This document shows, in pieces, positions 11,616 to 63,236 of a DNA stretch of 64,000 nt. The notes under the pieces were generated by a model. It did no database searches and was not told the origin of the DNA. It saw only the letters and a list, made by a program, of their open reading frames with translations. Source of the stretch: Olsenella sp. An290 (GTDB lineage Bacteria > Actinomycetota > Coriobacteriia > Coriobacteriales > Atopobiaceae). Numbering within the stretch: the stretch's first letter is position 1; each line of letters starts with the position of its first letter. A program made the translations under genes and the position numbers. Location of the stretch: positions 186,001 to 250,000 of the forward strand of contig NZ_NFIU01000001.1 in NCBI RefSeq assembly GCF_002159535.1, in the 5' to 3' direction.

Positions 11616-11685
11616 ACGCGCACTCGTGCAGAGGTTCTTCTCGCTCAACTGGGGAAACGCAAGAAGAGCGTGCACGAGTGCGCGT
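11616..11685. repeat. Intergenic stem element, 15-bp perfect arms
   Basis: ACGCGCACTCGTGCA (11616-11630) is exactly complementary to 11671-11685. The loop contains GTTCTTCTCG at 11634-11643 and AAGAAGAGCG, which extend the pairing. Same architecture as the elements near 36.2, 44.2, 48.1, 53.5-53.9 and 62.1 kb. Confidence 0.75.
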
Positions 11686-53523: not shown

Positions 53524-53943
53524 GGTTACGTACACTCCGGCCGGTTACGTACAGGAAAAGGCGTCCTTCTCGATAGGGTGTTTTGCATTTCTGCAGGTAG
53601 ATGACGTACGGCCGAGTGTACGTATCCAGCCAAAGTGTACGTAACCGGAAAACGTGTACGTAACCGAGTGGGGATGTATGTATCCGGGAGGACGATTGCC
53701 GGGCCGGGACCAGGATCAGCCGAGAAGGACTTTCATGTCGTCAATCGGCCTCGTCCCTCATCTGGTTGCGTACATTTCCGACGGTTACGCACACTCCGGA
53801 CGGTTACGTACACGCTTTCTGGTTACGTACACCCAACAGCAACCCGTCTACCTGCTGGAATGCAAGATGTCGCTCCGATGAGGGTGCTTTTTCGTGTACG
53901 TAACCGCTCAGAGTGTACGTAACCACCCGGAGTGTGCGTAACC
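53524..53943. repeat. Array of thirteen GGTTACGTACAC 12-mers forming two large palindromes
   Basis: Forward copies start at 53524, 53543; inverted copies at 53616, 53635, 53654, 53674; forward at 53764, 53783, 53802, 53821; inverted at 53894, 53913, 53932. Spacing inside each run is 19 bp (once 20). Seven copies are exact; the rest differ by one to three bases. Each forward-inverted pair of runs encloses a loop of about 60 nt; the two loops share TTGCAT and GCAGGTAGA words in opposite orientation. The surrounding gap 53404-54032 contains no convincing gene. Confidence 0.85.
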
Positions 53944-61961: not shown

Positions 61962-62108
61962 CAAGAGCGCCCTTTATGGACTGCGGCATGCCAAGCCGCT
62001 TCCATGCAACAGCTACGCAGGCGGCGGTGCCAACACGGCATCGAATGACTTCGCAGAACTTGACGCACGGAGCCGCCCATGGCGTGCAGGTCGTCCGCCG
62101 GCATCTCG

Positions 62109-62243
62109 GGTATGTACACCTCCTCGTAAGGGTATGTACACTTCCCAATCTGGTCGTTCTTCTCGCACAAGGCACTGACCTGCGGTTTTGCGAGAAGAAC
62201 CATCCGGCGGGGTGTACATACCCGGAAGGAGGGTGTACATACC
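62109..62243. repeat. Palindromic element of paired GGTATGTACAC repeats around a CGAGAAGAAC hairpin
   Basis: Forward GGTATGTACAC at 62109 and 62131; inverted GTGTACATACC at 62212 and 62233. Inside, GTTCTTCTCGCA (62156-62167) and its exact complement TGCGAGAAGAAC (62189-62200) form an inner stem whose loop contains GACCTGCGG (complement CCGCAGGTC). It occupies the 330-bp gap 61962-62291, where no gene is visible. Confidence 0.8.
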
Positions 62244-62291
62244 CTCAAAAGACGGGCGCGCCCGCAGGGGGGGCAGCGCGCAGGCGCCGCG

Positions 62292-63119
62292 TCACGCGCA
62301 CGCGTGGACCGCGTCGCGCAGGAACTGCGTGGCGCCCGGCGCCGCCTTCTCGTAGTAGGTGCGGAACCGCTCGTCGGAGACGTAGCCGTCGGCCAGGCCC
62401 TTGTGGGCCTCAGGAGTGTAGGTGCCCTCCGGCCAGTACATGCGCAGCCAGTGGCCGTGCATCGCCACGAGCTTGCGCGCCTCCGGGCCTGCCGGATTGC
62501 CCGCCTCCATCGCGCGGCGCAGCTGCTCCTTGATAGCGAGCTCGAGCTCGTCGGCCTGCAGGTGCGCCGCCTCGCCCATTGCCACGTACTTCTCGTTGGC
62601 GGCGTCTGCCGCCTCGTTGCCGTAGGCCGCGCGGACCTCCGTGCCGTAGGCCTCCTCGTTCTCCCCTACCTCGCGCCAGCGCTTGAGATGCGGCAGCAGC
62701 GTGGCCATGAGGGAGACCGCCTCGTCGAGGGAGACGCCGAGGGCCTTGGCCTCCATGGGGGCCGTGGCCTCGATGAACTCGTCCATCGTCATGCCCTTGG
62801 CGGTGAAGTCGCCGTGGTCGTAGCAGTACTTGCAGAAGTCCGCGTTCCGGGAGCCGTCCGCCTCGGTGCCGTGCAGCTCCTCGTCGGGGATGGGCATGCT
62901 GCAGCACTGGCAGTAGTAGCTCATGGGCATGTCGAAGAAGCGCTCGAGCGGCACGCCAAAGGTGACGCAGATGAGCTTCACCATGTCGATCCCGGGGGTT
63001 GTCTCGCCCGCCTCCCAGCGGCTCACGGCCTGCCGCGTCACGTAGAGCCTGTGTGCCATCTCCTCCTGCGTGAGGTCCGCCTCTTTGCGGATGGCGGCGA
63101 TGGTGTCCTTCATGGGCAT
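62292..63119 (-). CDS. HTH regulator with zinc ribbon and TipAS ligand-binding domain
   Basis: 275 residues in three parts: XRE-type HTH (about 1-62; AIRKEADLTQEEMAHRLYVTRQAVSRWEAGETTPGIDMVKLI), a four-Cys zinc ribbon (YYCQCCSMPIPDEELHGTEADG ... FCKYCYDHG) and a C-terminal TipAS-like domain (MHGHWLRMYWPEGTYTPEAHKGLADGYVSDERFRTYYEKAAPGATQFLRDAV). TipAS binds thiopeptide or other amphipathic drugs in MerR proteins; attachment to an XRE-type HTH suggests a drug-responsive regulator. AGGAGG precedes the ATG at 63119. Confidence 0.8.
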   Translation of the reverse strand: MPMKDTIAAIRKEADLTQEEMAHRLYVTRQAVSRWEAGETTPGIDMVKLICVTFGVPLERFFDMPMSYYCQCCSMPIPDEELHGTEADGSRNADFCKYCYDHGDFTAKGMTMDEFIEATAPMEAKALGVSLDEAVSLMATLLPHLKRWREVGENEEAYGTEVRAAYGNEAADAANEKYVAMGEAAHLQADELELAIKEQLRRAMEAGNPAGPEARKLVAMHGHWLRMYWPEGTYTPEAHKGLADGYVSDERFRTYYEKAAPGATQFLRDAVHACA

Positions 63120-63236
63120 AGGGTCCCTCCTTGCTCGGGTCTCTCGGTAGGGCAATTGTCACCGGGCGGGCGACGCCGCACAAGAAACGGGCTGTTGCGC
63201 GACTCCGGCTTTCTCGCTCTCTTGTGAGGATGGGGC

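Follow-up and report, generated by a model that had tools for sequence, protein, structure and literature searches.

A dispersed palindromic element of an Olsenella-like genome and the nuclease-like gene that its copies bracket

The best-described chromosomal gene that lives with a large palindrome family bracketing it belongs to the REPIN–RAYT pair. Short palindromic non-coding elements with repeated units towards their ends also occur among MITEs and IS elements with multiple terminal repeats, such as IS21, and the R64 shufflon with its recombinase Rci is a case of DNA inversion with 19-bp sfx repeats. RAYT genes have been described as lying, without exception, between two inverted REPs (PMC2817692), and a REPIN as a doublet of REPs that forms a hairpin (PMC3116915). 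Here we describe a repeat block whose elements are dispersed through an Olsenella-like genome and its congeners, and compare it with each of these systems. In layout it comes closest to REPIN–RAYT, and the protein that it accompanies appears to be of a different enzyme type.

The block spans 420 bp (53524–53943) of the window, the 64-kb stretch of DNA analysed in full, and consists of two back-to-back palindromes, 53524–53685 and 53764–53943, built from 13 near-identical 12-mers. The original prediction had read these as two forward, four inverted, four forward and three inverted units, and every site was found as described. The 19-bp spacing given for the runs holds generally, with the exception of unit 53674, which follows at 20 bp. 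Seven of the 13 units are exact copies of GGTTACGTACAC; unit 53764 has two mismatches to it and unit 53674 has three. Allowing two mismatches, GGTTACGTACAC matches 18 times in the window where 1.5 matches are expected; this number is far beyond chance and was not attained in any of 100 shuffles. The two central loops, held to be related in opposite orientation, do agree when so compared (61 bp each, 53555–53615 and 53833–53893). A CRISPR array was rightly set aside: the units have two opposing orientations and 7-bp linkers, as against direct repeats in one orientation with unique spacers. Three features had gone unremarked, namely that the innermost repeats are exactly 73 bp apart in both elements, that 16 further copies exist in the genome, and that a sister-type element lies in the same window at 62108–62244. 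The features are as follows.

53524–53685, no strand: element A, with two forward units, a 61-bp core and four inverted units, the last degenerate
53524–53554, plus strand: forward arm of element A, units 53524–53535 and 53543–53554 at a 19-bp step
53555–53615, minus strand: core A, 61 bp, with the conserved motif (TCTACCTGC...) on the minus strand
53616–53685, minus strand: inverted arm of element A, units starting at 53616, 53635 and 53654 and the degenerate unit 53674–53685 (three mismatches)
53764–53943, no strand: element B, with four forward units, a 61-bp core and three inverted units
53764–53832, plus strand: forward arm of element B, units starting at 53764, 53783, 53802 and 53821
53833–53893, plus strand: core B, 61 bp, with the conserved motif on the plus strand, opposite to core A
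53894–53943, minus strand: inverted arm of element B, units starting at 53894, 53913 and 53932
62108–62244, no strand: sister-type element, with two GGGTATGTACAC units, a core containing the nested inverted repeat GTTCTTCTCGC...GCGAGAAGAAC, and two inverted units

Elements A and B belong to a family of at least 18 copies on 11 contigs of this genome (G000; 2.15 Mb in 42 contigs, 97% complete), 16 of them beyond the two in the window. The starts of the last forward and first inverted units are exactly 73 bp apart in all 18 elements, and the arms hold 2–7 units per side, repeated every 19 bp. Across the 18 copies the 61-bp core has zero indels and a mean pairwise identity of 55%, compared with 22% to the reverse complement. 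Core conservation is confined to discrete blocks (CAagcc.TcTACCTGC.gAAAtg.Aaaacgcc, CgagaAGgaC and ttTtTC). Mismatches of the units to their consensus increase with distance from the core, from 0.4 at positions 1 and 2 to 1.2 at position 3 and 4.1 at position 4, reaching background by position 6; conservation is thus centred on the core and not on the outer ends. Copies are intergenic and lie between housekeeping genes in every relative orientation, some within operons (for example, in the gap between rpmA and obgE) and others between divergent genes.

In being short, non-coding and palindromic, with units repeated near the ends, these elements resemble MITEs and IS elements such as IS21. They differ in their outer ends: conservation is lowest in the outermost units, whose number is also variable, unlike transposon ends, no IS was found with these ends and no target-site duplication was seen. 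IS21 was considered as a parent and rejected, as G000 holds only a sub-cut-off IS21-type match.

A search of ~85,000 species for the exact array gave two other carriers, Olsenella profusa An794 and an Atopobiaceae metagenome-assembled genome, neither of which has an IS at the array; G000 is accordingly placed in an Olsenella-like genus. The sister element recurs in tens of copies in congeners, where two GGGTATGTACAC units at a 22-bp step are followed by 81–82 bp and two inverted units; a catalogue of one variety contains 121 elements from seven congeners. Related cores are found in congeners between arms of different unit sequences. A pattern for the core alone detected copies in 25 of the 31 genomes, with a maximum of 38 in one genome (reversed-pattern control, 0), a count that excludes the G000 cores, which are too diverged for the pattern. 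Viral contigs contained neither the array nor a relative of the partner protein described below, and the open-access literature yielded no description of such repeats or of the gene–repeat pair. A small peptide encoded in the core was rejected, since the 81- and 82-bp classes, read by eye, are mutually out of frame.

To follow individual copies, we compared 82 orthologous pairs between species, for which both flanks were required to match. Core orientation was the same in 72 pairs, inverted in 8 (4 loci) and ambiguous in 2. The core was nearer to a same-genome paralog than to its ortholog in 27 of the 82 pairs, and three loci have different cores inside flanks that are 91–98% identical. Inverted and replaced cores within matching flanks indicate that cores flip and move between loci, and that the flanks, and largely the arms, stay put. 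The elements themselves are kept at orthologous loci across species, and two aligned sites without the neighbour's element showed no clear target duplication. Inverted repeats enclosing a segment that occurs either way round are reminiscent of the shufflon. Here, however, what flips is non-coding DNA, cores are exchanged between loci as well, and no tyrosine recombinase seems to be consistently associated with the elements: G000 encodes six, one an integrase gene 437 bp from an array, and the rest >20 kb away or on array-free contigs.

The claim that no gene explains the block is correct within the window. Genome-wide, we identified a candidate partner gene on the minus strand (L019:4573–5529; G000:C9:4576–5520), bracketed by two G000 arrays. 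Its closest relatives, 54–62% identical, come from 18 other genomes, two of which carry a second copy, giving a clade of 21 genes for uncharacterised proteins. Every one of the 21 lies between palindromic elements, whose arms vary from species to species. A script given each locus's own unit, and searching for elements on each side within 900 bp, recovered 20 of the 21, a figure that is descriptive only because the units came from those very loci; the 21st, L249, has degenerate arms and was read by eye. The controls gave 0 of 546 locus-by-arm combinations (13 arm units at 42 loci, comprising 16 distant paralogs and 26 Y1 transposase loci). A unit-free test based on inverted 8-mers common to both flanks was positive for 18 of 21 genes and for 1.3% of random places.

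In gene orientation, the 5′ element ends 189–347 bp from the gene and the 3′ element starts 19–124 bp from it, except in G005, in which the 3′ copy is missing and the next element is 669 bp away. The clade genes occupy nine distinct neighbourhoods and are bracketed in all of them, which indicates that gene and elements were held together while their position changed. Some genomes lack the gene and yet keep copies of the element (nine in G008), and gene presence shows a modest link with core number (P 0.017). Beside the partner gene of G018, a small HicB-type gene and an adjacent small open reading frame lie between two elements (L120 8660–9224), possibly as a toxin–antitoxin pair.

No curated family scored above cut-off for the member shown. 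Weak, sub-cut-off Pfam matches to REase_MTES_1575 occur in 18 of the 21 members (best E 7.8e-4) and weak matches to DUF559 in 5 of 21; no relative was found in the PDB, and NCBIfam and PADLOC returned nothing informative. Across 19 divergent members there is no variation at E180, D225, E236, S239 and H243, which fall in the pattern SPxE...D...ExD/N-S...H (E236-x-D/N); this pattern resembles that of the EDxHD and PD-(D/E)XK nucleases reviewed in PMC3943268. Together, the residue pattern and the weak Pfam matches support a putative nuclease but fall short of proof. The wider protein family is present in 31 of 31 congeners, with ~10 members per genome in the genus, and 116 of the 150 genomes examined from the order have a match. 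Family presence alone is thus not the link to the elements; the bracketing of the partner clade is.

As judged from sequence comparison, arms track the protein subclade, even for two copies in one genome. G025 and G003 each encode two paralogs with different arms, and the second paralog of both is closest to the G002 protein (72%), with similar arms (GGTATGCGCAA vs GGTTATGCGCA). Protein distance and unit distance are correlated with a Mantel rho of 0.51 (P 0.0002), or 0.43 with near relatives collapsed, values that still include shared ancestry.

We consider it probable that the locus represents a pair of neighbouring copies of a palindromic element, non-coding and dispersed through the genome, with a bracketed nuclease-like partner that acts in trans. 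From the observed association and core exchange, we infer that the protein would be the cause, by way of binding, cutting and repair-driven copying or transposition. It would recognise the units of the arms, most likely as a whole array, and nick or cut the element, whereupon repair from another copy would spread, swap and invert cores and homogenise the units within a genome. The gene with its two elements would constitute an autonomous cassette, and copies such as the window locus would be non-autonomous derivatives (satellites). Among the three readings offered by the original prediction, the mobile palindrome is the best fit, considering the 18 dispersed copies, the genus-wide family, the exchanged and inverted cores and the bracketed gene, but we saw no case of transposition in which ends or a target-site duplication could be defined. 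The second reading, multi-site protein binding, could plausibly belong to the mechanism of such a palindrome.

The arrays might instead serve regulation or chromosome architecture, bound by the partner or by another DNA-binding protein, in which case bracketing would reflect autoregulation and the dispersed copies a regulon or architectural sites. The indel-free 73-bp spacing, together with conserved blocks in a core of 55% identity, argues for selection on a binding site. Also in its favour, the units decay away from the core and copies are retained at orthologous loci. We nevertheless regard this as unlikely: the copies adjoin unrelated housekeeping genes in all orientations, loci that stay fixed show replaced and inverted cores, the bracketed gene moves to other neighbourhoods along with both elements, and an element 3′ of the gene would be unusual for an operator.

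Inversion and exchange could also arise from RecA-mediated gene conversion without the partner protein. Selfish or neutral palindromes would then be kept solely by RecA-dependent repair of the host (hairpin cleavage, then gene conversion), with the gene incidental. Long palindromes are breakable and can be repaired from other copies, and such repair is expected to invert and exchange cores. An explanation on these lines seems very unlikely to us, as it accounts neither for the bracketing of all 21 genes of one clade with stereotyped spacing nor for arms that track the protein subclade within one genome.

The likeness to REPIN–RAYT raises a further alternative. In common with that system (PMC2817692, PMC3116915), the elements are dispersed, intergenic inverted repeats of ~70–180 bp; the gene lies between cognate repeats on both sides (21/21 here); the repeats are specific to the gene subclade; and a genome can hold several paralogous gene–repeat pairs. 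REPIN-like or MITE elements mobilised by a transposase from another part of the genome, whether Y1 (RAYT) or of another type, would share this overall organisation, and 28 of the 31 genomes have Y1 genes, with two in G000. Set against this, no Y1 locus has these arms or cores beside the gene, no IS21 match exceeds the cut-off and the elements have no fixed conserved outer ends, so that we rate mobilisation of this kind as highly improbable. The differences from REPIN–RAYT extend to the enzyme, which seems from its residues to follow an EDxHD or PD-(D/E)XK nuclease pattern and not that of a Y1 (HUH) tyrosine transposase; Y1_Tnp found no match in the partner family. The arms are tandem arrays of 12-bp units, unlike a single short REP, and seem not to begin with the GTAG or CGTC head of a REP (GTAG is present inside the core, in GCAGGTAGA, and not as an arm head); the element also has a conserved asymmetric core that inverts and is exchanged. 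On account of the enzyme, we describe the gene–palindrome pair as REPIN–RAYT-like in layout and not as a member of REPIN–RAYT.

Least probable of all is the structured RNA or attenuator, the third reading of the original prediction, for which either strand of the palindrome could form a very stable hairpin (z −9.95) and some copies lie inside operons, but against which stand a core without a conserved fold, linkers that do not pair in register (0.498 vs 0.475 between elements), no Rfam match for the element and copies that also lie between divergent genes.

Returning to the element with a nuclease-like partner, homing endonucleases of the EDxHD and PD-(D/E)XK types (PMC3943268, PMC6083498) offer a likeness in enzyme: the E..D..ExD..H residues resemble the nuclease core, and repair-driven copying is the mode of spread proposed here. 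Neither an intron nor an intein is involved, however; the gene lies between two repeat copies and not inside its own cut site, and many dispersed non-coding copies occur without a gene. Tentatively, and with some doubt, we suggest that these may form a class of mobile or homing palindromes unrelated to REPIN–RAYT, in which an EDxHD/PD-(D/E)XK-like nuclease would recognise species-specific arrays, cut them, and spread, flip and homogenise cores by repair. If this is indeed another case, seemingly independent and with an enzyme of another type, such a lifestyle would have arisen more than once. The system allows arm sequence, protein sequence and core exchange to be compared across 20 species; it names a protein group as the candidate and poses a direct question, that of species-specific mutual recognition between protein and arms.

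Similar arrangements were noticed around more distant homologs, as leads and not as systematic counts. Paralogs that are ~40% identical lie between short single hairpins whose arms are species-specific, in 9 of 9 cases by eye (L260, L261, L262, L263, L264, L265, L267, L268 and L269); a script gave the same for 9 of 21 distant paralogs. Homologs L287, L295 and L303, from another family of the order, are each enclosed by long palindromes, unrelated in sequence; most others inspected have none, and L285, L294 and L302, on short contigs with overlapping flanks, were left uncounted. Such related gene–palindrome pairs suggest that the system may be widespread in Coriobacteriales.

Several smaller observations concern individual elements. 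A further core subfamily, starting CACTTCTCG, is present in several congeners (G005:C4, C16 and C33; G008:C17; G009:C1 and C6). A different palindromic insertion of ~135 bp, with GTGACAATTAGGACAGG repeats, lies directly 3′ of a stop codon at L127 7828–7976 and is missing from two close relatives (L128 8831–8844 and L129 10334–10347). In the window, the sister-type element at 62108–62244 is followed by a minus-strand gene (62292–63155) whose DNA is 91% identical to an element-adjoining gene in congener G009; the other flank gives just 60–69% matches to congeners. The gene may have arrived horizontally along with the element. Finally, GGTYCTTCTCGC, which is part of the element core and also stands solitary next to many arrays, occurs nine times in the window against 0.04 expected, seven times on the plus strand (positions 11633, 25459, 30735, 42807, 48377, 53439, 54007, 58546 and 62190 on both strands together).
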